64,000 nucleotides of DNA from Actinomycetota bacterium (GTDB lineage: Bacteria > Actinomycetota > Actinomycetes > Actinomycetales > Dermatophilaceae): the NCBI GenBank assembly GCA_020161845.1, contig JAIUNK010000014.1, positions 46,215 to 110,214 on the forward strand, written 5' to 3'. The position numbers and the translations under genes were made by a program. Below are positions 1,518-23,862 of this stretch, one piece after another (the stretch's first letter is position 1; each line of letters begins with the position of its first letter). The notes under the pieces are model-generated. The model was not told where the DNA came from and ran no database searches. It saw nothing but the letters and a program-made list of their open reading frames with translations.

Positions 1518-1521
<4 letters not shown>
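979..1521 (-). CDS. P-loop kinase-like protein with degenerate Walker A, coupled to pgm
   Basis: 180 aa, starting at GTG 1521, whose last two bases form part of the pgm stop (GTGA overlap), so translation is coupled to pgm. Residues 1-30 are Pro/Gly/Ala-rich and probably disordered. Then comes a beta-strand plus loop, [13 protein letters not shown], followed by an alpha/beta fold ([34 protein letters not shown]) resembling zeta-toxin or chloramphenicol-phosphotransferase-like nucleotide kinases. The Walker A consensus GxxxxGK[ST] is broken: Lys is replaced by Cys and Ser/Thr by His. It may have lost ATP hydrolysis. The biological role is unknown. Coupling to pgm suggests a link with sugar-phosphate metabolism, which is inference only. 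Confidence 0.72.
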
Positions 1522-3182
<1,661 letters not shown>

Positions 3183-3332
3183 GGGGACATCTTTGCAGGC
3201 CCGGCCGGGTCGAGGGGGCGGCGCCGGGCCAGCGTCGAAGGACAGCGCTGTCGCTGCGCGAGCCCTGTCCCGAGGCCGATTCGCCTGCGAAGATAGGCCC
3301 AACCTGTCAGCCCCCGAAGAAGCCGAGGCGAC

Positions 3333-3779
3333 GTGCCGGACAACTCCATGAAGATCGGCGAGGTTGCCGAGCGCACCGGTCTGAGTCTGCGGACAATCCG
3401 GCATTACGACGAGACCGGATTGGTGGTCCCGTCGGCCCGAACCGTCGGCGGATTCCGAATGTACACCGAGGTGGAGGTGGCTCGGCTGCTGGTCATCAAG
3501 CGGATGAAGCCGCTGGGCTACTCGCTGGAGGAGATGGCCGACTTGCTGGCCACCCTCGACGATCTCGGTGGCCCGTGGATGCCGGACAGCAAGCACAGCT
3601 ACGGCTCGCGAGCATCCTCGGGCGCGGATCGCGCGCGCGACCTGCGGCGGCTGGACCACTACATCGGCGACGCCGACGAGCGGCTGGGCAAGTTGCGCGA
3701 ACGCACACAGATGGCCGAGGAGTTCGCCCGCACCTTGCGCTACCAGGCCCAGCGGCATCGGGGGGACGGCACGGCCTGA
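3333..3779 (+). CDS. MerR-family transcriptional regulator
   Basis: 148 aa. The N-terminal winged HTH is typical of MerR ([20 protein letters not shown], then [14 protein letters not shown]), followed by a coiled-coil-like dimerisation helix around residues 100-140. No cysteine cluster is seen, so the effector is probably organic rather than a metal; this is inference. GTG 3333 is chosen because GAGG lies at 3325-3328 just before it; an ATG at 3348 is the alternative. It is divergent from pgm with a 150 bp gap that could hold its operator. It is followed by a membrane acyltransferase. Confidence 0.88.
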
Positions 3780-3916
3780 GTCGCCGGCCAACCCCGCCAC
3801 CCGCTCGCAGGACGAGTCGGGCAGGCACTGTTACGCTCGTCCGGGAAGTCACTCTTACGCAGCGTGAGGTTTCTCCCGCGGTGGGGACCGCGGGGAAGTC
3901 GGTTGGGGGATCGTCC

Positions 3917-5092
3917 ATGGTCAGCGCCACTCAAGGACCCGTGGTCGCGGGCGGCGGGAGGCCGCCGGGAAACGCGTTCGGCCTGCTCCGGTTGGTGATG
4001 GCCGCCCTTGTCATCGTCTCGCACGGGTTCCCCATCGGGGGGTTCGGCGAGGACCCCATGTATGGCTGGTTCCGGGAACAGACCGACCTCGGCGGGGTCG
4101 CCGTGCTGGGCTTCTTCGCCATCAGCGGCTACCTCATCACGCGATCGGGCTCCTCCAGCGCAGTGGTCCCCTTCCTGTGGCGCCGGGCGCTGCGCATCCT
4201 GCCGGCGTTCTGGGTGGTTCTCGTGGTCGTCGCGGGGATCTTCGGGCCGATTTCGTACGCCGCGACATATGGGCGTCTGGACGGCTACTGGACCATGGAT
4301 GGGGGCGGTCCGCTGGCCTACGTGACGCGCAACAGCGGCGTCCTGATCACGGAGTACGGCATCAAGGGCGTCTTCGTCGGCAGCCCCTACGGCGCCGGCG
4401 CCGGCGTCGATGTCGTCAACGGCAGCCTGTGGAGTCTCTTCTTCGAGGTGCTCTGCTATCTCGGGGTCGCGGCGGCCATCGTGCTGGGCCTGCTGCGCGG
4501 CCGGCGTCGATTCGTGGTCGCCGCCCTCACCGTGACCCTCGCGCTTCTGCTGGTCCTGCAGCCGGTCGTGCCGATCTTCGGTCGCGTCGTTGATGTCCTC
4601 ACCCTCGGCGCGGCCGGGCCCGATCTCTATCTGGCCTTCGCCTGCGGCGGCATGGCGGCGCTCTTCCCGTCGCGGGTTCGCTGGCAGACCTGGTTGGCGG
4701 TGGTGGCCGGAGCGGTGACGCTGGGGACGCTGCTGCTCGGCGGCTTCAAGGGGCTGGGGACGGTGGCCCTGTCGTACGGCGTGCTGGCGGCCGCGCATCT
4801 CCTGCCGGCATGGGCCCGGCGCATCGGCGCGGTCAACGATGTCTCCTATGGCATCTACATCTACGCCTGGCCGGTCGCCATGCTCCTGGAGCAATGCGGG
4901 TTCGCGCGGGCCGGCTACCTGCCCTATCTCGCGGCGACGGCGGTGCTGACCCTGGCGCTTGCGGTGGGAAGCTGGGTGTTGGTGGAGCGGCCGGCGATGC
5001 GACTGAAGTCTCGCGGGCCGGGGGCCCGTCGGAACCGCCCGGCCGGGGTGGCGCTGCGAGGCCCGGGGGCCACTCCTCGCGCGATGACATAG
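3917..5092 (+). CDS. acyltransferase family 3 membrane O-acyltransferase (OafA/YrhL-like)
   Basis: 391 aa with about ten hydrophobic segments. It has the Acyl_transf_3 signature: an early helix ending in VIVSHGFPIGG (likely catalytic His) and GFFAISGYLITRSG, followed by WRRALRILPAFW. These inner-membrane proteins move acetyl or other acyl groups onto cell-surface sugars. ATG 3917 is supported by GGGGGA at 3905-3910. The gene lies upstream of the nucleotide-sugar cassette but is separated from it by 350 bp, so a shared pathway is possible rather than shown. Substrate unknown. Confidence 0.88.
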   Translation: MVSATQGPVVAGGGRPPGNAFGLLRLVMAALVIVSHGFPIGGFGEDPMYGWFREQTDLGGVAVLGFFAISGYLITRSGSSSAVVPFLWRRALRILPAFWVVLVVVAGIFGPISYAATYGRLDGYWTMDGGGPLAYVTRNSGVLITEYGIKGVFVGSPYGAGAGVDVVNGSLWSLFFEVLCYLGVAAAIVLGLLRGRRRFVVAALTVTLALLLVLQPVVPIFGRVVDVLTLGAAGPDLYLAFACGGMAALFPSRVRWQTWLAVVAGAVTLGTLLLGGFKGLGTVALSYGVLAAAHLLPAWARRIGAVNDVSYGIYIYAWPVAMLLEQCGFARAGYLPYLAATAVLTLALAVGSWVLVERPAMRLKSRGPGARRNRPAGVALRGPGATPRAMT

Positions 5093-5442
5093 TCGGCGGG
5101 CGTGAGCCGCGACGGGTTTGTCGCCCCCGGCCTGCACGGCGGGGCGGTTTCGAGTTTCCCTGTGCCGCAGATCTGCTGGTCAGGGGCCCATCGCTAGCTT
5201 GCCCCGGGCGGCACGCCCGGTGTTACCATAACGTGGTCGGGCGTCCAACATTGCGCGCCAGCCGCGCTAGCCCGGCAAGTGGTTCTAGGGGGAACTGCCA
5301 CGATGCCTGTCGTTTCCGTCGTCCCGCCGACCTTCCGGCGCGGCGGTGCGAAGGCCTCCCACCGTGCCTCGTGCGGGAGGCAGTCTCGCCTCCGCACCAG
5401 AGACGTCGCGCACTCCGGGCGCGGACAAGGAAGGACAACGTA
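5093..5442 (+). other. 350-bp non-coding leader before the sugar cassette
   Basis: No convincing gene. It holds two hairpins. The first is CCGGGCG-GCA-CGCCCGG at 5204-5220, a possible terminator for the acyltransferase without a T-run. The second is GCCTCCC at 5354-5360 pairing with GGGAGGC at 5375-5381, inside the probable 5' UTR. A relatively AT-rich patch at 5220-5235 (GTTACCATAACG) between them is the best promoter candidate, which would give a 5' UTR of about 200 nt. I recognise no known riboswitch. Confidence 0.4.
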
Positions 5443-6219
5443 GTGAAGGCCGTCATTCTGGCCGGGGGGCTGGGAACCCGACTCTCCGAGGAAACCGTCC
5501 TCAAGCCCAAGCCGATGGTCGAGGTCGGGGGGAGACCGATTCTCTGGCACATCATGAGCGAATACGCCGCGCACGGCATCAACGAGTTCGTCGTGTGCTG
5601 TGGTTATAAGGCCGAATACATCAAAGAGTGGTTCTCCACCTACGCCATGCGCAATTCGGACATGACCTTCGACCTGGCCACCGGGGAGGTGCAGGTCCAC
5701 AAGCGCGATGTCGAGGACTGGAAGGTCACCCTCGTGGACACCGGTCTGAACTCGATGACCGGCGGTCGGCTACGACGGGTCCGGGAGCATGTCGGTGACC
5801 AGACCTTCTGCTTCACCTACGGCGACGGCGTTTCGGACACCGATATCACCGCGACCGTCGACTTTCACCGCAGGTCCGGGCGGCTCGCGACGATGACGGT
5901 GGTGCAGCCGCCCGGCCGGTTCGGTGCGATCAGCCTGGGCCGCAACGAGACGACGATCGAGCACTTCCAGGAGAAGCCGGACGGCGACGGCGCCTGGGTC
6001 AACGGCGGCTACTTCGTGTGCGAGCCGGGCGTCATCGACTACATCGCCGGCGACGACACGACCTGGGAGCAGGAGCCGCTGCGCAACCTCGCGCACGACG
6101 GCCAGCTCAACGCCTACAAGCACCCCGGCTTCTGGCAACCGATGGACACGCTCAACGACAAGAACAAGCTGGAGACGTTGTGGGCCTCCGGCAAGGCCCC
6201 GTGGAAGGTATGGAACTGA
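5443..6219 (+). CDS. rfbF: glucose-1-phosphate cytidylyltransferase
   Basis: 258 aa, the normal length for RfbF. It forms CDP-glucose from CTP and glucose-1-P, the first step to CDP-linked deoxysugars. Diagnostic sequence is the N-terminal nucleotidyltransferase loop ILAGGLGTRLSEET with KPKPMVEVGGRPILWHIM, then FTYGDGVSDTDI, and the C-terminal GFWQPMDTLNDK. GTG 5443 follows AGGAAGGA with good spacing and places the motif at the proper N-terminal position. It is the first gene of a five-gene unit; the next ATG starts one base after its stop. The usual partner, CDP-glucose 4,6-dehydratase (RfbG), is not adjacent. Confidence 0.92.
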   Translation: MKAVILAGGLGTRLSEETVLKPKPMVEVGGRPILWHIMSEYAAHGINEFVVCCGYKAEYIKEWFSTYAMRNSDMTFDLATGEVQVHKRDVEDWKVTLVDTGLNSMTGGRLRRVREHVGDQTFCFTYGDGVSDTDITATVDFHRRSGRLATMTVVQPPGRFGAISLGRNETTIEHFQEKPDGDGAWVNGGYFVCEPGVIDYIAGDDTTWEQEPLRNLAHDGQLNAYKHPGFWQPMDTLNDKNKLETLWASGKAPWKVWN

Positions 6220-6220
6220 C

Positions 6221-7243
6221 ATGAAGATCCTGGTCACCGGCACCGACGGCTACATCGGTTGCCTGTTGGCGCCCATGTTGCAGGATGCCGGCCACGAGGT
6301 CGTCGCCGTCGACACCGGCTATTACAAGAACGGCTGGCTCTACAACGGGCTGCGCAGCGCTCCGATCACCCTCGCCAAGGACATGCGGCTGCTGACCGAA
6401 GCGGACTTCGAGGGCGTCGACGCGGTCGTGGCGATGGCCGAGCTGTCCAACGACCCGGTCGGCGACCTGGTCGGGCCGATCACCTACGAGATCAACCACC
6501 TGGGCAGCGCGCACGTCGCCAAGACCGCCAAGGCGGCGGGCGTGGAGCGGTTCGTCTACATGAGCTCCTGCTCGGTATACGGCGTGGCCGACGGCACCGT
6601 CGATGAGACCAGCGACGTCAACCCGCAAACGGCATACGGCAAGTGCAAGTACCTGACCGAGCAGGACCTCTGGGAGCTGGCCGACGACAATTTCCACCCG
6701 GTCGCGCTGCGCAACGCCACCGCCTTCGGTGCTAGCCCTAGGCAGCGCTTCGACATCGTGCTCAACAACCTGTCGGGCCTGGCCTACACGACCGGGGTCA
6801 TCGCGATGACCAGCGACGGTACGCCGTGGCGGCCCATGGCCCACGCCCTCGACCTGTGCAAGGGGATCACGCTCATGCTCGACGCCCCGGTGGAGAAGAT
6901 CCACGCCCAGGCGTTCAACTCGGGCAGCAATGACAACAACTACACGGTGCGTGAGATCGCCGAGACCGTGGCGAACGAGTTCACCGGCTGCCAGCTGTCG
7001 TTCGGGGCGCCGGGCGCGGACAACCGGTCCTACAAGGTCAACTTCGACAAGATCGCCGACCTCGGTTTCACCTGCGACTGGGACCTGGCCAAGGGCGCCA
7101 AGCAGCTCCACGAGGTCTTCGACGCGATCCAGCTGGACGAGGCGACGTTCACCGGCCGGGGGCACACCCGCCTCAAGCAGATTGAATGGCTGCTGCAGAC
7201 GGGTCAGGTGGACGAGAAGCTGTTCTGGAAGCGGGAGTGGTGA
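6221..7243 (+). CDS. NAD-dependent epimerase/dehydratase (extended SDR)
   Basis: 340 aa. The N-terminal Rossmann motif is VTGTDGYIG (GxxGxxG). The catalytic triad is visible: Ser in YMSSCSVYG, and Tyr and Lys in AYGKCKYLTEQ. It acts on a nucleotide-activated sugar in the cytoplasm, either as 4-epimerase/4-reductase or 4,6-dehydratase. In the RfbF context it could replace RfbG or act after it; sequence alone does not decide. It starts one base after the rfbF stop, and its TGA lies three bases before the ATG of the next gene. SDR assignment is firm; substrate is not known. Confidence 0.85.
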   Translation: MKILVTGTDGYIGCLLAPMLQDAGHEVVAVDTGYYKNGWLYNGLRSAPITLAKDMRLLTEADFEGVDAVVAMAELSNDPVGDLVGPITYEINHLGSAHVAKTAKAAGVERFVYMSSCSVYGVADGTVDETSDVNPQTAYGKCKYLTEQDLWELADDNFHPVALRNATAFGASPRQRFDIVLNNLSGLAYTTGVIAMTSDGTPWRPMAHALDLCKGITLMLDAPVEKIHAQAFNSGSNDNNYTVREIAETVANEFTGCQLSFGAPGADNRSYKVNFDKIADLGFTCDWDLAKGAKQLHEVFDAIQLDEATFTGRGHTRLKQIEWLLQTGQVDEKLFWKREW

Positions 7244-7245
7244 GC

Positions 7246-7788
7246 ATGGAGTTTACGAAGACCGCCGTCGACGGGTGCTGGATCATCGACATCAAGCCGT
7301 TCGAGGACGCCCGCGGCGGATTCGCCCGCACCTTCTGTGTGGACGAGTTCGCCCAGCACGGCATCCCGACCGAGGTCATGCAGGCCAACATGAGCTGGAA
7401 CCACAAGGCCGGCACCATGCGCGGGATGCACCGTCAGATCGCGCCCGCGGCCGAGGGCAAGCTGGTCCGCTGCATCCGCGGCACGATCGTCGACTGCTGC
7501 CTGGATCTGCGCGAGGACAGCCCGACGTTCGGCGAGCACGTCATGGTCGAGCTCTCGGCCGAGAATCATCGGGCGCTGTGGATCCCGCCGTACTGCGGGC
7601 ACGGCTATCTCACGATGACCGACGACACCGAGGTGACCTACCAGGTGTCCGGCATGTACAGCCCGCAGCACGAGCGCGGGCAGCGGTACGACGACCCGGC
7701 GTTCGGCCTGCAGTGGCCGCGCAGCATCGAGGTCGTCTCCGAGAAGGACATGGCCTGGCCGGACTGGGACGGAAAGAAGATCAAGTGA
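7246..7788 (+). CDS. dTDP-4-dehydrorhamnose 3,5-epimerase-like cupin (RmlC family)
   Basis: 180 aa, the size of RmlC. It has GTMRGMHRQ with the conserved catalytic His, WIPPYCGHGYL, and the C-terminal YDDPAFGLQWP strand typical of sugar 3,5-epimerases. It probably epimerises a 4-keto nucleotide sugar made by the preceding enzymes. Because the cassette starts with a CDP-glucose synthase, a CDP-sugar is as likely as a dTDP-sugar. ATG 7246 is preferred over GTG 7240 because GGGAG at 7233-7237 is correctly spaced for it. The stop overlaps the next start (GTGA). Confidence 0.88.
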   Translation: MEFTKTAVDGCWIIDIKPFEDARGGFARTFCVDEFAQHGIPTEVMQANMSWNHKAGTMRGMHRQIAPAAEGKLVRCIRGTIVDCCLDLREDSPTFGEHVMVELSAENHRALWIPPYCGHGYLTMTDDTEVTYQVSGMYSPQHERGQRYDDPAFGLQWPRSIEVVSEKDMAWPDWDGKKIK

Positions 7789-9101
7789 TCATCGTCGACG
7801 ACCTGCTGGCGCAGCGCGAGGCGCAGGGCAACCCGGTGCGCGTCGGGATCGCCGGCCCCGGGTTCATGGCCAAGGGCCTGATCAACCACATCCTCAACAC
7901 CAAGCCCGGCATGGAGGTGGCGTGCGTCTATGCGCGCACCCCCGACAAGGGCGTCGCGGCGCTGGCGACCGCCGGCCGCGAGGGTGACCTGGTGGCCGTC
8001 GTGGCCGACGCCGCAGGCGTCGACGCGATCGTCGCCCAGGGCGGCACCGCCGTCACGAGCAACCACGAGGCGATGACGCAGGCGAGCTGTGTCGACGTCA
8101 TCATCGACTGCACGGGCGCCGTCGAGTTCGGCTGCGTGCTCGCGCTGGCGACGCTTGCTGCCGGCAAGCACCTGGTCCTGATGAACGCCGAGGTCGACGC
8201 GACGGTCGGCACCATCCTCAACGCGAAGTTCGAGGACGCCGGCCTGGTCTACACCGGCTGCGACGGTGACCAGCCGGGCGTGCAGATGAACCTCATCCGG
8301 TTCGTCCGAGGCCTCGGCCTGACGCCGATGGTGGCAGGCAACATCAAGGGCCTGCAGGACCCCTATCGCAACCCCACCACCCAGGAGGGGTTCGCCAAGC
8401 AGTGGGGCCAGGACCCGCACATGGTCACCTCCTTCGCCGACGGGACCAAGGTGTCCGTCGAGCAGGCGCTGGTCGCCAACGCCGCCGGGCTGTCGGTCAC
8501 CAAGCGGGGCTGCGAGCAGCGCGATCACCGCGGGCACATCGACGAGCTCACCGGCATGTACGACGTCGAGCAGCTCAAGGAGATCGGCGGCACGGTCGAC
8601 TATGTGGTGGGCAGCCAGCCCGGCCCGGGCGTCTACGTCCTGGCCACCCACGACGACCCCAAGCAGCAGCACTACCTCAACCTCTACAAGCTGGGGCAGG
8701 GCCCGCTGTACTCCTTCTACACGCCCTATCACCTGTGCCACTTCGAGGTGCCGGACACGGCCGCCCGCGCCGTACTGCTGGGCGACGCGACGATCAAGCC
8801 GCTGCGCCAGGCGCCCAAGGTCGAGGTCATCACCATCGCCAAGAAGGACCTGGTGGCGGGGGAGCGGCTGGACGCGCTCGGCGGCTACATGTACTACGGC
8901 GAGTGCGAGAAGGCCGAGGTCACGGCCGCCGAGCGGCTTCTGCCCGTCGGACTCGCGGAGGGCTGCGTCCTCACGCGCGACATCGCCAAGGACGAGGCGA
9001 TCGGCTACGACGACGTCGAGGTGCCCGCGGGCCGGCTGGCCGACGAGTTGCGTGCCGAGCAGGATCGGACCTTCCCGCAGCCGGTCCAGGTGGCGTCGTG
9101 A
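7785..9101 (+). CDS. NAD(P)-dependent oxidoreductase with C-terminal SAF domain (homoserine-dehydrogenase-like)
   Basis: 438 aa. Residues about 18-140 form a Rossmann fold (VRVGIAGPGFMAKGL). The middle is a catalytic domain (YTGCDGDQPGVQ, GNIKGLQDPYRNPTTQ). The end, about 350-435, resembles a SAF domain (LPVGLAEGCVLTRDIAKDEA), as in sialic-acid-synthase and altronate-dehydratase antifreeze-like modules. This matches the uncharacterised predicted-homoserine-dehydrogenase-like group found in sugar clusters. It starts at GTG 7785 overlapping the epimerase stop, and its own stop overlaps the next start. The reaction is unknown; reduction or oxidation of a C4-C6 sugar acid or aldehyde is a reasonable guess. 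Confidence 0.8.
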   Translation: MIIVDDLLAQREAQGNPVRVGIAGPGFMAKGLINHILNTKPGMEVACVYARTPDKGVAALATAGREGDLVAVVADAAGVDAIVAQGGTAVTSNHEAMTQASCVDVIIDCTGAVEFGCVLALATLAAGKHLVLMNAEVDATVGTILNAKFEDAGLVYTGCDGDQPGVQMNLIRFVRGLGLTPMVAGNIKGLQDPYRNPTTQEGFAKQWGQDPHMVTSFADGTKVSVEQALVANAAGLSVTKRGCEQRDHRGHIDELTGMYDVEQLKEIGGTVDYVVGSQPGPGVYVLATHDDPKQQHYLNLYKLGQGPLYSFYTPYHLCHFEVPDTAARAVLLGDATIKPLRQAPKVEVITIAKKDLVAGERLDALGGYMYYGECEKAEVTAAERLLPVGLAEGCVLTRDIAKDEAIGYDDVEVPAGRLADELRAEQDRTFPQPVQVAS

Positions 9102-10402
9102 CGACTCGAGCGAGCGCACCGTCTCGGCGATCCGGTGCCGCCGATGCGACCCCGGTCTACGACTACGTCGTGGTCGGCGGCGGCATCGTCGGACTGGCCA
9201 CCGCGATGACCCTGCTCACCGAGCGCCCCGGTGCCTCGGTGCTCGTCGTGGAGAAGGAGAACGACGTCGCGCGGCACCAGACCGGCCACAACAGCGGCGT
9301 CATTCATGCCGGGATCTACTACAAGCCGGGCAGCCTGAAGGCGAAGCTGTGCAAAGAGGGCGCGCAGTGGACCCGAGACTTCTGCGACGAGCACGGCATC
9401 CCCTATCGCAACACCGGCAAGCTCATCGTCGCCACCAACGACGCCGAGCTGGAGCGGATGCACGCCCTCTACGAGCGGGCGCTCATCAACGAACTCGATG
9501 TCGAGCTGATCGACGAGGCCGAGCTGCGGCGCCGCGAGCCCAACATCACCGGCGTCGGGGCGATCTTCCTGACCAGCACCGGCATCGTGAGCTACACGCA
9601 GGTCTGCCGGAAGATGGCCGAGGTCATCGAGTCCCGCGGCGGCACGATCCGGCTGGCGACCAAGGTCGTGGCCATCCACGAGTCGCTCTCCGAGGTCTCG
9701 ATCGACGTCACGACGACGGACCCGTCCGCGGCCGAGGATCGCGAGCGGCTCTACGCGCGGCAACTCGTCGTGTGCGGCGGCATCCAGGCCGACCGGCTGG
9801 CCCGAATGGCCGGCCTGGACGTCGACTTCCAGATGGTGCCGTTCCGGGGGGAGTACTACCGACTCGACCCCAAGCACAACGACATCGTCGACACGCTGAT
9901 CTACCCGGTGCCCGACCCGGAGCTGCCCTTCCTCGGCGTGCACCTGACGCTGATGATGGACGGCGGGGTGACGGTCGGCCCGAACGCGGTGATGGGGCTG
10001 TCCCGGGAGGGCTATCCCAAGTTCTCCCTCAACGTCGCCGACATGGCGAGCTTCGTGCGCTTCCCCGGGTTCTGGAAGGTCGCGAAGAAACAATTCAAGA
10101 CCGGCATCGTGGAGCAGAAGAACAGCCTCTACAAGCCCGGCTACCTGCAGCTCGTGCGCAAGTACTGCCCGAAGCTGACGACGGCCGACCTCACTCCGGA
10201 GGAGTGCGGGATTCGGGCCCAGGCGGTCAAGACCGACGGCTCGATGGTTGAGGACTTCCTGTTCTATGACACTCCGCGGATGTTGCACGTGTGCAATGCG
10301 CCCTCGCCGGCCGCGACCTCGGCGATGCCGATCGCGGCGCTCATCGCGCAGAAGGTGCTCGCCCACGACGCCTCGCCGCAGACCAGCGAGCTGGCCGGGT
10401 AG
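9098..10402 (+). CDS. FAD-dependent oxidoreductase, L-2-hydroxyglutarate oxidase (LhgO)-like
   Basis: 434 aa DAO-family flavoprotein. The FAD-binding motif VVVGGGIVGLATAMTLL is near residue 25, followed by the LhgO-type HNSGVIHAGIYYKPGSLKA, a substrate-domain arm PFRGEYYRL, and a C-terminal APSPAATSAMPIA. LhgO oxidises L-2-hydroxyglutarate to 2-oxoglutarate. Here it closes a sugar-nucleotide cassette with a GTGA overlap, so it more likely oxidises a 2-hydroxy acid or sugar acid produced or needed in that pathway; that is inference. About 20 extra residues precede the first beta strand. It is convergent with glgB, separated by a strong hairpin. Confidence 0.85.
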   Translation: MTTRASAPSRRSGAADATPVYDYVVVGGGIVGLATAMTLLTERPGASVLVVEKENDVARHQTGHNSGVIHAGIYYKPGSLKAKLCKEGAQWTRDFCDEHGIPYRNTGKLIVATNDAELERMHALYERALINELDVELIDEAELRRREPNITGVGAIFLTSTGIVSYTQVCRKMAEVIESRGGTIRLATKVVAIHESLSEVSIDVTTTDPSAAEDRERLYARQLVVCGGIQADRLARMAGLDVDFQMVPFRGEYYRLDPKHNDIVDTLIYPVPDPELPFLGVHLTLMMDGGVTVGPNAVMGLSREGYPKFSLNVADMASFVRFPGFWKVAKKQFKTGIVEQKNSLYKPGYLQLVRKYCPKLTTADLTPEECGIRAQAVKTDGSMVEDFLFYDTPRMLHVCNAPSPAATSAMPIAALIAQKVLAHDASPQTSELAG

Positions 10403-10430
10403 TCGCCCGCAGGGGTGACCCCGGCGCCCC

Positions 10431-10463
10431 GAGGGTGCGCGGCGGAATCCGCCGCGCACCCTC
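10431..10463. terminator. bidirectional terminator hairpin between convergent genes
   Basis: Perfect inverted repeat with 16-bp arms around one base: GAGGGTGCGCGGCGGA, then A, then its exact reverse complement. It sits between the ends of the LhgO-like gene (+) and the maltokinase-glgB gene (-). There is no T-run, as is common for actinobacterial hairpin terminators. Confidence 0.85.
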
Positions 10464-10477
10464 AGGCGTTCAGCCGG

Positions 10478-16175
<5,698 letters not shown>

Positions 16176-16178
16176 TCC

Positions 16179-18266
16179 TTAGAACCTCCGCGCGCTGATG
16201 ATGTGGATTGGTTCGGTGTCCCGACCAAGCCGGACGAAGGCGTGTTCGCCCCACTGCCAGGACTGGCCGGTGATCAGGTCTTTCGCGACGAACCCTGTGC
16301 CCCAGTCGAAGCCGAGCGACGGCATGTCCAGGTGCACCCAGGTCTCCCGGGTGGTGTGCGGATCGAGGTTGGCGACGACCAGGATGGTGTCTTCGCGGCC
16401 GGCCTGCACCCGCCGCTTGCTGAAGACGAGCACGTTCTCGTCCTCGGCGGAGTGGAAGCGCAGGTTGCGCAACCAGTGCAGCGCGGGGTGTTCGCGCCGG
16501 ATCTCGTTGACGCGGCGCAGGTAGTCGGCCATCCACAGCTCGCCAGCCTTGGGGCCGCCGGGCTCGTAGTCGCGCCAACGACGATCCTTGAACTGGTATT
16601 TCTCGTTGTCGATCTGTTCCTCGACGCCGGGCCGCGGGACGGCCTCCAGCAGCTCATAGCCGGCATAGATGCCGTACGTCGGGACCAGCGTCGCCGCCAG
16701 GGCGGCGCGCAGCTTCCACGCGGTGGGGCCGCCGAACTGCATGTACGGCGTGAGGATGTCGTGCGTCGTCGGCCAGAAGCTCGGCCGCATGTACGCCGCG
16801 CTCTCGCCGGCCAGCTCGCGGCAGTATTCCTCGATCTCCCAGCGCTGATTGCGCCACGCGTAATAGGTGTAGCTCTGCTGGAAACCGACCTTGCCCAGTG
16901 CCTTCATCATCGGCGGCTTGGTGAACGCCTCCGCCAGCCAGATGATGTCGGGGTGTGACTTGGCGACGTCGGCGATGATCCACTGCCAGAACTCGACCGG
17001 CTTGGTGTGCGGGTTGTCCACCCGGAACAGCGTCACGCCGTGGTCGATCCACACCTGGATGACCCGGCGGACCTCGGCATAGATGCCGGCAGGGTCGTTG
17101 TCGAAGTTCAGCGGATAGATGTCCTGGTATTTCTTCGGCGGGTTCTCCGCATAGGCGATCGTGCCGTCGGCGCGCGTGGTGAACCACTCCGGGTGGGCAC
17201 TGACCCACGGGTGGTCGGGGGAGCACTGCAGCGCGATGTCGAGCGCCACCTCGAGGCCGTTCTTCCGGGCCTGGGCGACGAAGTAGTCGAAGTCCTCGAA
17301 GGTGCCCAGGGTCGGTTCGATCGCGTCGTGGCCCCCGGCCGCACTGCCGATGGCGTACGGCGAGCCGGGGTCGTCCGGCCCCGCCTCCAGGGTGTTGTTC
17401 GGTCCCTTGCGGTTCGTCGAGCCGATGGGGTGCACCGGGGTGAGATAGACGACATCGAAGCCCATCCCCGCGATGGCGGGCAGCCGCTGCGCCGCGGTGC
17501 GCAGCGTGCCCGTGGTCCAGGTGCCGGTCGCCTCGTCGTAGCGGCAGCCCTCGCTGCGCGGGAAGAACTCATACCAGGCGCCGTACAGCGCCCGCTCGCG
17601 CTCGACCCGCAACGGGTAGGCCGGCGACGGCGAGACCATCTCCCGCAGCGGGCGATGCTCCAGTTCGGACCGTACGGCGTCGCCGGTGCCGCCCGACAGC
17701 CGCGCCTCGATACCCAACGTGGTGTCCCGCAGCGTGGCCGCCCCGTCGGTCAGCAGCTGCGCCGCGGGTTCGGTGCGCGGCACCGCGTCGCGGGCCTGCT
17801 CCAGCAGCCGGGCGCCCTCCTCGAGCATCAGCTCGACGTCGACCCCGGCGCGCACCTTGATGGTCGCATCGTGTTCCCAGGTGCCGTAGGGATCACTCCA
17901 GCCCTCCACGCGGTAGCTCCACGACCCCACCCGGTCGGCGGCCACCGGGCACTCCCAGGTCATCAGCCCGACGTTGGTGCAGCGCATCGGCAACACTCGC
18001 TCGGCGCCGTCCGGGTCGACCAGCACCACGCTGGCGTTGACGGCGTCGTGACCCTCCCGAAAGACGGTGGCGGTCACCGAGAACTCCTCGTCGACCACCG
18101 CGATCGTGGGGAAGGCGCCGGATTCGATCGTCGGAGCGACCTCCAGGACCGGGATGCGGCCGACGGGTCGGCCGACCGGGAACGGCTCCGGGCGCGCCGG
18201 CGTGGGGATCGGCTCGGCGGCGGGGGCGGGACGGGGCACGGCTCGTGTACGCGGTCTCGCTGTCAC
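16179..18266 (-). CDS. glgE: alpha-1,4-glucan:maltose-1-phosphate maltosyltransferase
   Basis: About 695 aa. GlgE transfers maltosyl units from maltose-1-P to the non-reducing ends of alpha-1,4-glucan. The N-terminal domain starts with a Pro/Arg-rich tail followed by VGRIPVLEVAPTI; the GH13_3 barrel has GFDVVYLTPVHPIG, nucleophile region TLFRVDNPHTKPVEFW and acid region IIWLAEAFTKPPMM. The C-terminal strand ends VRLGRDTEPIHII. GTG 18266 is chosen because a TAGCGT box lies seven bases before it; GTG 18317 would add 17 residues unlike the family. First gene of the glgE-treS-mak/glgB operon, divergent from glgP. Confidence 0.93.
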   Translation of the reverse strand: MTARPRTRAVPRPAPAAEPIPTPARPEPFPVGRPVGRIPVLEVAPTIESGAFPTIAVVDEEFSVTATVFREGHDAVNASVVLVDPDGAERVLPMRCTNVGLMTWECPVAADRVGSWSYRVEGWSDPYGTWEHDATIKVRAGVDVELMLEEGARLLEQARDAVPRTEPAAQLLTDGAATLRDTTLGIEARLSGGTGDAVRSELEHRPLREMVSPSPAYPLRVERERALYGAWYEFFPRSEGCRYDEATGTWTTGTLRTAAQRLPAIAGMGFDVVYLTPVHPIGSTNRKGPNNTLEAGPDDPGSPYAIGSAAGGHDAIEPTLGTFEDFDYFVAQARKNGLEVALDIALQCSPDHPWVSAHPEWFTTRADGTIAYAENPPKKYQDIYPLNFDNDPAGIYAEVRRVIQVWIDHGVTLFRVDNPHTKPVEFWQWIIADVAKSHPDIIWLAEAFTKPPMMKALGKVGFQQSYTYYAWRNQRWEIEEYCRELAGESAAYMRPSFWPTTHDILTPYMQFGGPTAWKLRAALAATLVPTYGIYAGYELLEAVPRPGVEEQIDNEKYQFKDRRWRDYEPGGPKAGELWMADYLRRVNEIRREHPALHWLRNLRFHSAEDENVLVFSKRRVQAGREDTILVVANLDPHTTRETWVHLDMPSLGFDWGTGFVAKDLITGQSWQWGEHAFVRLGRDTEPIHIISARRF

Positions 18267-18273
18267 AGGTAGG

Positions 18274-18279
18274 ACGCTA
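18274..18279 (-). promoter_or_regulatory. candidate -10 box for leaderless glgE
   Basis: On the minus strand TAGCGT is followed by seven bases and the GTG at 18266, the geometry of a leaderless actinobacterial promoter. No clear -35. It faces away from the glgP promoter about 80 bp to the right. Confidence 0.45.
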
Positions 18280-18358
18280 TCTCGTTCCTCCGACCAACGG
18301 CGCGTCAGCGTGCCCACCGTCCGCCTGGGACGTTTCGGGAGTGTGTGGGGGTCTCGCC

Positions 18359-18364
18359 TAAACT
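18359..18364 (+). promoter_or_regulatory. candidate -10 box for leaderless glgP
   Basis: TAAACT followed by seven bases and GTG 18372. It fits TANNNT at the distance where transcription would begin at the start codon. No Shine-Dalgarno sequence is visible, which supports leaderless translation. Confidence 0.55.
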
Positions 18365-18371
18365 CTCATCC

Positions 18372-20951
18372 GTGAAGGCAATTCGACGTTTCAACGTCCG
18401 TTCGGTCCTGCCGGAGGCGATCAGCGAACTCGGCGAGCTCGCGATCAACCTGCGCTGGTCCTGGCACACCGCGACCCGCAATCTGTTCGCCGAGACCGCA
18501 CCGTTGCGGTGGGAGCAGGTCGGCCACGACCCGGTGGCCCTGCTGTCCAGCCTGTCGGCCGCCGAACTGGACAAGCTCGCCCGGGATACGGACTACGTGG
18601 CCAAGGTCAAGTCGGCCTACGCCGACCTGCAGGCCTATGTCACGGGCGACCGGTGGTACCAGCGGTGGGCGCGCGAGGTCGGCTCCGAGGTGCCCAAGGC
18701 CATCGCCTACTTCTCGGCCGAGTTCGGCATCACCGAGGTACTGCCGCAATACTCCGGTGGACTCGGCATCCTGGCCGGTGACCACCTCAAGTCCGCCAGC
18801 GACCTCGGCGTACCGGTGATCGGGGTCGGCCTGTTCTACCAGACCGGCTATTTCGCCCAGTCGCTGAACCGCGACGGCTGGCAGCAGGAGACCTACCCGG
18901 TGCTCGACCCCGACGGCCTGCCACTGTCATTGCTGCGCGGCGCCGACGGCAAGCCCGTCCTGATCACCCTGTCCATGCCCGGGCACCGGACGCTGCGCGC
19001 GTTCGTCTGGAAGGCCCAGGTCGGTCGCATTCCGTTGCTGCTGCTCGACAGCGACGTCCATGCGAACGATCCGGACCTGCGCAGCGTCACCAACCGGCTG
19101 TACGGCGGCGGCGGGGAACAACGGCTGCTGCAGGAGATGCTCCTGGGCATCGGCGGCGTTCGGGCCCTGCGCCTGTACAGCTCGATGACGGGAACGCCCG
19201 AGCCCGACGTCTACCACTGCAACGAGGGGCATGCCGGATTCCTCGGCATCGAACGGATCCACGAGCTGGTCACCCAGCGCGGACTCACCTTCGACGAGGC
19301 CCGCGAAGCCACCCGGGCCGCCACGGTCTTCACCACCCACACCCCGGTCCCGGCCGGCATCGACCGCTTCGGCGCCGACCAGATCAGGCACTACTTCGGC
19401 GGCGACAACGCCCTGGACGGGGTGCCGATCGAGAAGCTGATCGCGCTCGGTGCAGAGTCCTACCCCGGCGGCGACGGCGGCGTCTTCAACATGGCGGTGA
19501 TGGGGCTGCGGATGGCCAAGCACGCCAACGGGGTCAGCGAGTTGCACGGCATCGTCAGCCGGGAGATGTTCCACGGCCTGTGGCCGGGATTCGACGACAC
19601 CGAGGTCCCGATCACCTCGATCACCAATGGGGTGCACGCCCCCACGTGGGTCGACCAGCGCATCTTCGATGTGGGTGGGTCCTTCGACCCCGCCGAGGAG
19701 TCGTCCAGCGGCAAGCTGGCGCTCTTTGCGGCCCGCGCCACGGATGAGCAGATCTGGTCCGTCAAGCGTGAGCTGCGCCAGCAACTGGTGGAGATGGCTC
19801 GGGCCCGGACCAAGGACAGCTGGGTCAAGCGCGGATCCTCGCCGGCCGAGCTGGGCTGGACCCAGGACATCCTCGACCCGGACGTGCTGACCATCGGGTT
19901 CGCTCGCCGCGTCCCGACGTACAAGCGCTTGACGCTGATGCTGCGCGACCCCGAGCGGCTCACCAAGATCCTGCTCGACCCCGAGCGGCCCGTGCAATTG
20001 GTCATCGCGGGCAAGAGCCACCCCGCCGACGACAACGGCAAGCGCCTGATCCAGAAGATGGTCCAGTTCGCCGACGACCCGGCCATCCGGCACCGGATCG
20101 TGTTCTTGCCGAACTACGACATCGGGATGGCCCGGCACCTCTACCCCGGCTGCGACGTCTGGCTGAACAACCCGCTGCGGCCACTGGAGGCCTGCGGCAC
20201 GTCGGGGATGAAGGCGGCCCTGAACGGGGGGCTCAACCTCTCGATCCTCGATGGCTGGTGGGACGAGTGGTACGACGGGCAGAACGGCTGGGACATCCCC
20301 ACCGCCGACGGCATCACCGACCCCGACCGCCGCGACGACATCGAGGCGACCGCGCTCTACGACCTCATCGAGAACCGGGTCGCGCCGCGCTTCTACGACG
20401 TCGACCCCGCCGGTGTGCCGCGCCGGTGGGTCGCGATGATGCGGCACACGCTGGCCACCCTGGGGCCGAAGGTGCTGGCCACCCGGCAGGTGCAGGACTA
20501 CACGACGGAGCTGTACAAGCCGGCCGCCGACGCGCACCGCGTCATGGTGGATCGTGGCTTCGAGGCGGCCAAATCGCTGGCCGCCTACCGGGCCCGGATC
20601 AGCGAGCACTGGTCGACGTTGCACATCGACCATGTGGAATCCTCCGGCGTCCCGGACGCGCCGCAGGTCGGGGACTCCTTCGCGGTGCGCGCGTTCTGCT
20701 CGCTGGGCGCGTTGCGCCCGGAGGACGTGGATGTGCAGGTCGTGCATGGCCATGTCGACGCCAACGATGAACTCTCGGCCACGGCGACGTGTTCGCTGCC
20801 GGTGGTGGAGAGCTATGAGGGCGGCCGGCATCGCTTCGAGGGCGACCTGAAGGTGGCGCAGACGGGCTCGTTCGGCTACACGGTGCGGATCGTCCCGACA
20901 CACAAGCAACTGGCCACGCCCGCCGAGTTCGGCATGACGGTCAACGCCTGA
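18372..20951 (+). CDS. glgP: alpha-glucan (glycogen/maltodextrin) phosphorylase
   Basis: 859 aa, the actinobacterial GlgP class. It releases glucose-1-P from alpha-1,4-glucan ends using phosphate and PLP. Visible features are LRWSWHTATRNLF near the start, AYFSAEFGITEVLPQYSGGLG, TVFTTHTPVPAGIDRF, FARRVPTYKRLTL and the PLP-lysine region ACGTSGMKAALNGGLNLS. A C-terminal extension of about 110 residues is usual for this class. GTG 18372 matches the typical N-terminus VKAIRRFNVRSVLPE; an upstream in-frame GTG at 18345 would lie before the predicted -10. Divergent from glgE and convergent with glgX, so synthesis and breakdown genes sit side by side. Confidence 0.94.
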   Translation: MKAIRRFNVRSVLPEAISELGELAINLRWSWHTATRNLFAETAPLRWEQVGHDPVALLSSLSAAELDKLARDTDYVAKVKSAYADLQAYVTGDRWYQRWAREVGSEVPKAIAYFSAEFGITEVLPQYSGGLGILAGDHLKSASDLGVPVIGVGLFYQTGYFAQSLNRDGWQQETYPVLDPDGLPLSLLRGADGKPVLITLSMPGHRTLRAFVWKAQVGRIPLLLLDSDVHANDPDLRSVTNRLYGGGGEQRLLQEMLLGIGGVRALRLYSSMTGTPEPDVYHCNEGHAGFLGIERIHELVTQRGLTFDEAREATRAATVFTTHTPVPAGIDRFGADQIRHYFGGDNALDGVPIEKLIALGAESYPGGDGGVFNMAVMGLRMAKHANGVSELHGIVSREMFHGLWPGFDDTEVPITSITNGVHAPTWVDQRIFDVGGSFDPAEESSSGKLALFAARATDEQIWSVKRELRQQLVEMARARTKDSWVKRGSSPAELGWTQDILDPDVLTIGFARRVPTYKRLTLMLRDPERLTKILLDPERPVQLVIAGKSHPADDNGKRLIQKMVQFADDPAIRHRIVFLPNYDIGMARHLYPGCDVWLNNPLRPLEACGTSGMKAALNGGLNLSILDGWWDEWYDGQNGWDIPTADGITDPDRRDDIEATALYDLIENRVAPRFYDVDPAGVPRRWVAMMRHTLATLGPKVLATRQVQDYTTELYKPAADAHRVMVDRGFEAAKSLAAYRARISEHWSTLHIDHVESSGVPDAPQVGDSFAVRAFCSLGALRPEDVDVQVVHGHVDANDELSATATCSLPVVESYEGGRHRFEGDLKVAQTGSFGYTVRIVPTHKQLATPAEFGMTVNA

Positions 20952-20966
20952 GCGCACACTCGGTCC

Positions 20967-21014
20967 CAGTCGGGGGCCGGCTTCCCCATCGGGGAGGTCG
21001 GCCCCCGAACTGGT
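20967..21014. terminator. bidirectional terminator between glgP and glgX
   Basis: Long stem-loop between two convergent genes. TCGGGGGCCG pairs with CGGCCCCCGA, an inner stem forms from CTTCCCC and GGGGAGG, and outer CCAG/CTGG pairs extend it with a one-base bulge. No T-run. Confidence 0.8.
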
Positions 21015-23264
<2,250 letters not shown>

Positions 23265-23270
23265 CTGGCC

Positions 23271-23276
23271 ACTGTA
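23271..23276 (-). promoter_or_regulatory. candidate -10 box for leaderless glgX
   Basis: On the minus strand TACAGT precedes GTG 23264 by six bases. No Shine-Dalgarno sequence precedes that codon. Shares a 139-bp divergent intergenic space with the YbjN-like gene. Confidence 0.45.
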
Positions 23277-23390
23277 GCGAAGCAACCCGCCCATGGGTCG
23301 GAAACGGTTGCGCCGCAACCCGCCCGTGGACGCGGGACCGAACGGGCGGGCCGTCGGCGAGGGCGGCTGGTCCCGGGGCTGGTGCGCCAC

Positions 23391-23396
23391 TAGGTT
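23391..23396 (+). promoter_or_regulatory. candidate -10 box for leaderless ybjN-like gene
   Basis: TAGGTT, then seven bases, then ATG 23404. No purine-rich ribosome binding site in between. Confidence 0.55.
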
Positions 23397-23403
23397 GTCG
23401 GAC

Positions 23404-23862
23404 ATGAGCGATCCCACCAGCTTGCCCAACTTCCCGCCGCCGGCCAACGAGCACCCGCTCCGGGGACGGGTCCTCGACGCCCTGCAGGATGAGGGCTTCC
23501 GGCCCGACATCGACGCGGACGGGGACATCGCCTTCAAGGTCAACGGTCAGCAGCTGTTCGTGCACTGCTTCGAGGGGGAGTTGCCCCTGCTGCGGGTCTT
23601 CGGCCAGTGGCAGATCGACGACAACCTGCCTGGCGACGAGCTGACCCGCCTGCAGAAGTGCAACGAACTGTCGCTTCGTCTCAACGTCGTCAAGGTCGGT
23701 CTCAACAACGAGACCCTTTTCGTCACCGCGGAACAGATCTGCCCGCCCGAGACGGACGCCAAGATGGTGTCCACGCTGCTGACGCAGCTCGTGCTGCAGG
23801 CCGTGCACGTGTGGCACGAAATGATGTCCGGTAAGGACCCGTTTGGGGAGGCGCAGGCCTGA
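23404..23862 (+). CDS. YbjN domain-containing protein
   Basis: 152 aa. The mixed alpha/beta fold resembles YbjN/type III chaperone-like proteins: HPLRGRVLDALQDEGFRPDID, QLFVHCFEGELPLLRVFGQW, then LTRLQKCNELSLRLNVVKV. These proteins are small cytosolic factors linked in E. coli to stress and motility, probably chaperone-like; the actinobacterial role is unknown. The stop codon shares a base with the ATG of the enoyl-CoA hydratase gene, so the two are translationally coupled. Confidence 0.82.
   Translation: MSDPTSLPNFPPPANEHPLRGRVLDALQDEGFRPDIDADGDIAFKVNGQQLFVHCFEGELPLLRVFGQWQIDDNLPGDELTRLQKCNELSLRLNVVKVGLNNETLFVTAEQICPPETDAKMVSTLLTQLVLQAVHVWHEMMSGKDPFGEAQA

Follow-up and report, generated by a model that had tools for sequence, protein, structure and literature searches.

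How could a CDP-linked sugar be made by a gene set that has no recognizable CDP-glucose 4,6-dehydratase and that includes two redox enzymes foreign to a deoxysugar route? The question is raised by a five-gene cassette in a 64,000-nt stretch of DNA (the window) from an actinobacterium of the family Dermatophilaceae (GCA_020161845.1, contig JAIUNK010000014.1), which encodes, in order, the cytidylyltransferase RfbF, a short-chain dehydrogenase/reductase (SDR), an RmlC-type epimerase, a SAF-domain protein of the DLO1 type, and an LhgO-type L-2-hydroxyglutarate oxidase. All five genes lie on the forward strand, and their junctions (gaps of 1, 2, −4, and −4 nt) are as tight as a first-pass annotation, made from the sequence alone, had described. 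As that annotation had also stated, neither a CDP-glucose 4,6-dehydratase nor a glycosyltransferase of the surface-glycan type was seen among the neighbors read (positions 3173 to 22000). We tentatively propose that the five genes may together suffice to make a CDP-activated branched furanose destined for a surface glycan. The observations behind this proposal are gene content, protein families, predicted folds, conservation, and an exchange of dehydratase and LhgO in two loci; every substrate along the route we infer, that of the ring-contraction step most of all.

In the proposed route, RfbF would convert glucose 1-phosphate to CDP-glucose, and the SDR would oxidize C4 without dehydration to give CDP-4-ketoglucose, its tightly held NADH being re-oxidized by 2-oxoglutarate to yield L-2-hydroxyglutarate. 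LhgO would return L-2-hydroxyglutarate to 2-oxoglutarate, with the sink catalytic and the electrons exiting by the flavin. The RmlC-type enzyme would then epimerize the 4-keto sugar at C3 and C5, and DLO1 would carry out a DXR-II-like retro-aldol/aldol rearrangement followed by NADPH reduction of the extruded aldehyde. The product would be a sugar with a contracted ring and a 3-C-hydroxymethyl branch; the simplest candidate is CDP-dihydrohydroxystreptose [3-C-(hydroxymethyl)-L-lyxose], an assignment that draws on general arguments of sugar stereochemistry. The enzyme families are all known; what would be new, as judged from the papers searched, is their combination as a pathway, the role of LhgO, and DLO1 as a sugar reductoisomerase. 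In the open-licence PMC literature searched, we found neither a characterized set of the same composition, in line with the first-pass annotation, nor a paper that connected a CDP-sugar route with either LhgO or a DXR-II-like protein.

Within the phylum, 49 of 296 genomes had a DLO1 homologue at E ≤ 1e-20, four of them, counting the window's own genome, at no less than 51% identity, and in three of these four neighbors (G139, G205, and G175) RfbF, SDR, and RmlC genes were found beside the DLO1 gene. A species-level scan with four aligned proteins and one genome per species gave at least 590 pattern matches, and a relative was encoded by 452 among the matches listed. The best 80 of these 452, which are those nearest to the query and not a random sample, comprised loci from 35 Actinomycetota, 34 cyanobacteria, and 11 Pseudomonadota. 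At locus thresholds of 90 bits for RmlC, 150 bits for RfbF and SDR, and 200 bits for LhgO, RmlC was present near DLO1 in 77 loci, SDR in 71, RfbF in 68, and LhgO in 45. All five genes occurred together in 43 of the 80 (15/35 Actinomycetota, 28/34 cyanobacteria, 0/11 Pseudomonadota) and also on a Deinococcus plasmid, more often than chance would account for, which agrees with the earlier suggestion of a single coupled pathway from CDP-glucose. In 49 of the 80, RmlC lay on the same strand as DLO1, its match ending no more than 150 nt upstream; among the three loci without RmlC, DLO1 lay close to a contig end in L093 and L110 and not in L090.

The order of the window recurred in Agilicoccus, Kineosphaera, Mobilicoccus (two loci), Ornithinicoccus, and Propioniciclava. 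The arrangement is thus not peculiar to this strain, a possibility that the first-pass annotation had allowed for, and the same-order search that it proposed found the order kept across genera, with polysaccharide genes nearby in relatives. In Kineosporia, Cellulomonas, and Auraticoccus, DLO1 was preceded by LhgO at a distance of 5 to 6 kb. The cyanobacterial order was RfbF-LhgO-SDR-..-RmlC-DLO1, many of these loci having extra genes between SDR, RmlC, and DLO1, while the plasmid of Deinococcus taeanensis carried rfbF-lhgO-SDR-rfbC-SAF with 4-nt overlaps at three of the four junctions and glycosyltransferases adjoining. In many loci, recurring neighbors (identified by eye) and annotated neighbors pointed to polysaccharide loci.

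A comparable locus has been described in Anabaena sp. PCC 7120, where the heterocyst envelope polysaccharide (HEP) island (alr2825 to alr2841) begins, in the available parts of its description, with a glucose-1-phosphate cytidylyltransferase (alr2825), a hypothetical protein (alr2826), and an epimerase/dehydratase (alr2827), continues with alr2828, alr2829, rfbC (alr2830), and an NAD(P)-dependent oxidoreductase (alr2831), and then holds glycosyltransferases and other genes (PMC4390870). The island is regulated together, and the heterocyst envelope polysaccharide depends on it (PMC4390870). Its listed gene order agrees with that of the surveyed cyanobacterial loci, in which LhgO takes second place; alr2826 is therefore very likely LhgO and, from the same order, alr2831 very likely DLO1. 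Protein NP_486871 is presumably alr2831, and single-gene mutant data for HEP-island genes were reportedly presented by Huang in 2005.

The step that sets the cassette apart from CDP-deoxyhexose pathways of the rfbF-rfbG type, with which it has the cytidylyltransferase in common but not the CDP-glucose 4,6-dehydratase, is the one assigned to the SDR. This protein matched PF01370 (121.8 bits), and no NCBIfam model reached its cut-off. Its best solved relative by sequence was Cj1427 (6vo6, 87.4 bits versus 58.5 for the next), and a fold search with its predicted structure (26 sequences, mean pLDDT [predicted local distance difference test score] 91.2) also returned Cj1427 at the top (6vo8), with MoeE5 nearly as close; identity to Cj1427 was only about 27%. 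The motif SSCSxYG was present in 26 of 26 aligned homologues: at this site the window protein reads SSCSVYG, two CDP-glucose 4,6-dehydratases read TTDK, and a StrE-like protein reads STDE. A role as a 4,6-dehydratase was rejected, as the dehydratase pattern occurred in 0 of the 26 homologues and TIGR02622 was missing from the 14 families listed for the protein. Cj1427 is a C4-dehydrogenase with a ping-pong mechanism: 2-oxoglutarate re-oxidizes its tightly bound NADH and is itself converted to L-2-hydroxyglutarate (PMC10680097, in part). We consider that the window SDR quite probably oxidizes C4 without dehydration, and by analogy we propose it as a candidate CDP-glucose C4-dehydrogenase that passes its hydride to 2-oxoglutarate. 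The likeness to Cj1427 would give LhgO a plain role, the oxidation of the by-product L-2-hydroxyglutarate.

RfbF scored 427.5 bits against TIGR02623 (equivalog cut-off, 300.25), has 1tzf as its nearest solved relative (E = 9.8e-113), and very likely makes CDP-glucose. The epimerization step can very probably be assigned to the RmlC-type protein (PF00908, 207.4 bits; TIGR01221, 160.1 bits versus a cut-off of 155.75), which has the catalytic-type residues His62, Lys72, and Tyr132. Its nearest solved chain was 7pvi (143 bits; runner-up, 125.8). With a 22-residue offset, the His, Lys, Met, and Tyr of this chain coincide with H64, K74, M123, and Y134 of the Coxiella epimerase CBU1838, from which we infer that the two are the same protein; the code 7pvi is absent from the available text of the paper on that enzyme (PMC9095892). 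The column of M123 holds Tyr121 in the window protein, Tyr in most SDR cassettes, Phe in the Pseudomonadota SDR cassettes and in locus L048, and Tyr in a dehydratase cassette (L049), and the Phe/Tyr residue was rejected as a predictor of 6-hydroxy substrates.

The fourth protein had been called homoserine-dehydrogenase-like. Its homoserine-dehydrogenase domain fell below cut-off, its SAF match was just at cut-off (21.0), and no NCBIfam model matched; instead, PF21135 (“Oxidoreductase DRL, catalytic domain”) scored 177.4 bits. At E ≤ 0.001, a sequence search found solved relatives in 3upl and 3upy only, whose titles name the Brucella abortus enzyme that catalyzes the first committed step in the methylerythritol pathway, i.e., DXR-II, and the predicted structure (25 sequences, mean pLDDT 93.8) matched these two at a TM-score of 0.92 to 0.93, the next fold reaching about 0.4. 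DXR-II has two sister clades, DLO1 and DLO2, described as uncharacterized in 2013; Leu, Ile, or Val at position 229 is typical of DLO1, and Lys191, Lys193, and Thr229 of DXR-II hold the inhibitor (PMC3847144, in part). In the alignment, the window protein keeps Lys191 (as K188) and has Leu190 in place of Lys193 and Val223 in place of Thr229. In a tree of 84 rows, for which 112 usable sequences were thinned in part and the published DLO1 sequences themselves were not among the rows, and for which the tree tool warned of long branches meeting at several joins, the window protein fell in a 62-row clade (support, 100/99) whose rows all have Ile, Val, Leu, or Met at site 229. Outside this clade were 18 rows with Thr or Ser at the site, including a Listeria innocua protein, and four more with Met. 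By sequence and model, the fourth protein is of the DLO1 type, grouping with homologues from cassettes and from streptomycin-type clusters, and is kin to the carbon-skeleton reductoisomerase DXR-II, with which it shares fold and PF21135 but not clade or the residues at 193 and 229. We judge the chances to be about even that DLO1 performs the ring contraction.

Streptose and dihydrohydroxystreptose have two named producers, Streptomyces griseus and Coxiella burnetii (PMC9095892), and both are in the published list of DLO1 proteins (PMC3847144, Table 1, section 5). In the available parts of the former paper, the route proposed for these sugars comprises a C4 oxidase, an RmlC-type epimerase, of which each organism has a single orthologue, and a ring-contracting enzyme, for which the authors favor an RmlD paralogue; the activity making the 6-hydroxy substrate was not yet identified as of 2022 (PMC9095892, Discussion). 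The cassette would share with these pathways an NDP-4-keto sugar, double epimerization by RmlC, and ring contraction (PMC9095892), and an RmlC-type epimerase gene is present in its sequence. The streptose and dihydrohydroxystreptose pathways are held to be dTDP-linked, whereas the cassette is predicted to be CDP-linked. The Coxiella DLO1 gene presumably lies near cbu1838. Ring contraction by retro-aldol/aldol chemistry plus reduction on a nucleotide sugar is also carried out by UDP-apiose synthase, and the authors of that work suggested a comparable chemistry for streptose (PMC5324594, in part). That synthase differs in being one enzyme that acts on UDP-glucuronate with decarboxylation. It is an SDR. 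With greater reserve than for the cassette itself, we suggest that DLO1 might be the missing ring-contracting synthase of streptose-type sugars, belonging to a DXR-II-related rather than an SDR family of branched-sugar reductoisomerases, and that the cassette might be its CDP-linked, 6-hydroxy version with a closed shuttle.

In a genus that appears to be Streptomyces-like, DLO1 matches at E ≤ 1e-60 were found in 3 of 295 genomes. One of the three is of the Thr type; G329 and G538, the remaining two, encode DLO1 proteins that are 56 to 57% identical to that of the window, sit inside its 62-row clade, and lie within clusters that read by eye as streptomycin type, with aminotransferase, amidinotransferase, StrR-like, RmlA-, RmlB-, RmlC-, and RmlD-like, and ABC transporter genes. 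The names StrA/B/D/E/L/M/O/R/U/V/W, StsC, and StsG, as we take them to apply here, were assigned by eye from translations. A search of the two genomes for RfbF gave six weak matches (best E = 6.5e-14). A strQ-like CDP route was rejected, two of the matches (L130 and L131) being nucleotidyltransferases encoded beside a cysteinyl-tRNA-synthetase-like gene, in a housekeeping setting shared by the two genomes; the remaining four lay in frames of 845 and 936 codons. No SDR match was obtained at E ≤ 1e-12 in a search without a positive control. As there was no strong RfbF match and no SDR match, DLO1 seems, by sequence, to work without a CDP-glucose branch in these clusters, which are of a type whose antibiotic includes a ring-contracted sugar. 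By fold and context DLO1 is a candidate for the streptose-type ring-contracting reductase; StrL is a candidate as well.

The main alternative keeps the first four steps and makes DLO1 a plain NADPH-dependent C4-ketoreductase. Its product would be a CDP-L-hexose, for which the analogy of rhamnose synthesis points to L-mannose or the C4 epimer of this sugar. The GDP-heptose route of Campylobacter (Cj1427/Cj1430/Cj1428) offers a precedent, with a 2-oxoglutarate-dependent C4-dehydrogenase, an RmlC-type 3,5-epimerase, and a C4-reductase; it differs from the cassette in starting from a GDP-heptose rather than CDP-glucose and in having that reductase where the cassette has DLO1, and LhgO is unmentioned in the available text (PMC10680097). 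The lack of two DXR-II substrate-site residues in DLO1 is also consistent with a ketoreductase, as is the report, seen in part, that strP, strQ, and strX are essential and lie outside the streptomycin cluster in another strain (PMC12498427). DLO1 in streptomycin-type clusters would on this account serve N-methyl-L-glucosamine. We take strP, strQ, and strX to serve that sugar. The known C4-reductases of such routes are SDRs, however, whereas DLO1 has a reductoisomerase fold, and in G329 and G538 no 6-hydroxy 4-keto sugar is evident, given the absence of a good RfbF match and, in the search without a positive control, of an SDR match. We regard the ketoreductase as less likely than the branched-furanose route.

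Returning to the proposed shuttle, LhgO scored 581.4 bits against NF008726 (equivalog cut-off, 299) and, with scores obtained for 11 of the 14 first-look candidates in its genome, was the single match reported there at E ≤ 1e-30. An SDR gene was also present in every one of the 45 surveyed loci that contained LhgO; a rough chance expectation for LhgO in the locus is 0.16 in 80, calculated from rounded inputs (0.5 LhgO per 5-Mb genome) and for loci that are not independent. The usual L-2-hydroxyglutarate-making partner of LhgO is CsiD. None of 18 cassette genomes, the window's own included, had CsiD over cut-off (one sub-threshold match, 25.1 bits) in a search whose Escherichia coli positive control gave a match. 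Since C4 cannot be oxidized without dehydration unless there is an electron sink, the two redox enzymes, which the first-pass annotation had found unexpected in a deoxysugar route, need not be surplus: LhgO likely re-oxidizes the L-2-hydroxyglutarate formed by the Cj1427-like SDR.

Loci in which a dehydratase stands in for the SDR bear on this shuttle. Since 4,6-dehydratases are redox neutral, returning the hydride to the sugar, they need no sink, and the model predicts that LhgO is missing from such loci; two cases only were available. In a metagenome-assembled genome of Propionibacteriaceae (L049), RfbF, RmlC, and DLO1 are 74, 72, and 66% identical to those of the window, and a CDP-glucose 4,6-dehydratase (TIGR02622, 343.5 bits; cut-off, 278.45) replaces the SDR. 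No LhgO was found within its 15-kb stretch, to which the search was confined. The DLO1 of this locus is sister in the tree to that of L048, which has both SDR and LhgO. The second case, Persicobacter psychrovividus (L149), carries rfbG (487.7 bits), two rfbC-type genes, a SAF gene, and glycosyltransferases, with no SDR of the cassette type and no lhgO within 10 kb; one of its two rfbC-type proteins is without the usual Tyr.

Several observations weigh against the route as we propose it. To our knowledge, no product is known from any carrier of the cassette. Four DLO1 or DLO2 proteins that were tested were unable to replace DXR (PMC3847144, in part), two of the three inhibitor-holding residues of DXR-II are changed in the window protein, and a StrL-like (RmlD-like) gene, the usual candidate for the streptose step, is present in both streptomycin-type clusters. 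The Tyr/Phe position near the epimerase active site does not track the split between dehydrogenase and dehydratase cassettes, and the Persicobacter stretch showed no RfbF. As for LhgO, 20 actinobacterial loci were without it; in 14 genomes searched (13 of these and G139), 9 had no match at E ≤ 1e-30 and 5 carried an over-cut-off LhgO elsewhere, outside the locus. A further cassette genome (G175) had none, G329 and G538 have LhgO outside the DLO1 cluster, and in Pseudomonadota LhgO was over threshold in 0 of 11 loci, all 8 of the cassette genomes searched having only a below-cut-off relative. LhgO is also common in any case: of 148 genomes in the class, 67 have one that passes the cut-off. The idea that LhgO is an obligatory partner was not upheld, several cassette genomes being without it.

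It is on these last counts that LhgO could be read as a neighbor with its own catabolic role, the SDR recycling its cofactor otherwise and the other four genes being the pathway: the enzyme is frequent in the class, and 9 of the 14 searched actinobacterial genomes without a local LhgO have none at E ≤ 1e-30. The recurrence of LhgO in more than half of the loci, at several positions, in Actinomycetota and cyanobacteria as well as on the Deinococcus plasmid, and the lack of CsiD over cut-off in the 18 cassette genomes make such a bystander role decidedly improbable. That DLO1 is a second DXR for isoprenoids, linked to sugar genes by accident, was rejected as exceedingly improbable despite its DXR-II fold and PF21135 domain: its own genome has an ordinary DXR (DXR-I) over cut-off, so that DLO1 is not needed for isoprenoids, Val and Leu stand at the Thr229 and Lys193 sites, it belongs to a separate clade, and RmlC is found in nearly all of the 80 surveyed loci.

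The branched-furanose route would offer candidates, as one contiguous five-gene block carried by harmless bacteria, for both activities left unassigned in PMC9095892, the C4 oxidase and the ring-contracting enzyme, and suggests why an L-2-hydroxyglutarate oxidase occurs in polysaccharide loci. If true, it would provide a function for DLO1, called uncharacterized in 2013 (PMC3847144, in part), and would allow several HEP-island genes of Anabaena to be read in chemical terms. LhgO would serve nucleotide-sugar synthesis through a closed 2-oxoglutarate/L-2-hydroxyglutarate shuttle, and the surface glycans of Actinomycetota, of cyanobacteria (in the heterocyst envelope), and of Deinococcus would commonly contain 3-C-branched sugars, which would then not be confined to single organisms.

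Coordinates of the cassette and of neighboring genes in the window
Feature	Position	Strand	Remarks
RfbF, glucose-1-phosphate cytidylyltransferase	5443-6219	+	GTG start; glucose 1-phosphate to CDP-glucose (predicted)
SDR, proposed CDP-glucose C4-dehydrogenase with 2-oxoglutarate as oxidant	6221-7243	+	Cj1427-like in sequence and fold
RmlC-type 3,5-epimerase	7246-7788	+	PF00908; TIGR01221 over cut-off
SAF-domain DLO1-type protein (DXR-II-like)	7785-9101	+	GTG start; proposed NADPH-dependent ring-contracting reductoisomerase; rival role, C4-reductase
LhgO-type L-2-hydroxyglutarate oxidase	9098-10402	+	GTG start; proposed recycling of L-2-hydroxyglutarate to 2-oxoglutarate
Acyl_transf_3 membrane acyltransferase	3917-5092	+	PF01757, 64.4 bits; 350-nt gap to RfbF; doubtful member
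MerR-family regulator, upstream neighbor	3348-3779	+	PF13411, 68.7 bits
Phosphoglucomutase	1518-3800	-	TIGR01132; can supply glucose 1-phosphate
Alpha-glucan phosphorylase, about 8 kb downstream	18345-20951	+	TIGR02094; can supply glucose 1-phosphate

The phosphoglucomutase and alpha-glucan phosphorylase genes flank the cassette on opposite sides, each less than 10 kb away. The latter belongs to a glycogen/trehalose block directly downstream (10478-23543; branching enzyme, TreS-type, phosphorylase, GlgX), whose first gene is on the other strand and convergent with the cassette. The link to the upstream acyltransferase, which the first-pass annotation had thought could act on the product, is weak, a homologue being present in 4 of 84 other loci examined; an annotated acyltransferase adjoins the DLO1 gene in the Gemmobacter locus. 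The window DLO1 groups with Dermatophilaceae at about 80%, and the DLO1 of another genome of the same family (G139, locus L036) is only 62% identical to it and groups with Arsenicicoccus: the cassette seems to move between lineages.

Other variants were seen among the loci. A different DAO-family flavoprotein is encoded in the loci of Sphingobium (L115:11446-12567) and Gemmobacter (L148:5201-6322), with LhgO as the best model at 180.5 and 187.7 bits, respectively, below cut-off; these alphaproteobacterial proteins may be another means of achieving that recycling. In Mobilicoccus caccae, the match to the LhgO gene (L045:11431-12152) was split in two, which would fit a frameshift or a misassembly. 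In Roseomonadaceae, DLO1 occurred without RfbF or SDR nearby in L090 (10001-11332) and L117, and in L090 without RmlC too. Two Mycobacterium species (L059 and L082) had RfbF-like, SDR, RmlC, and DLO1 genes, with Met at the DXR-II Thr229 site, and in the exopolysaccharide-like locus of G175 a PIG-L-type deacetylase gene, identified by eye, lies between RfbF and SDR (L038:11495-12142).

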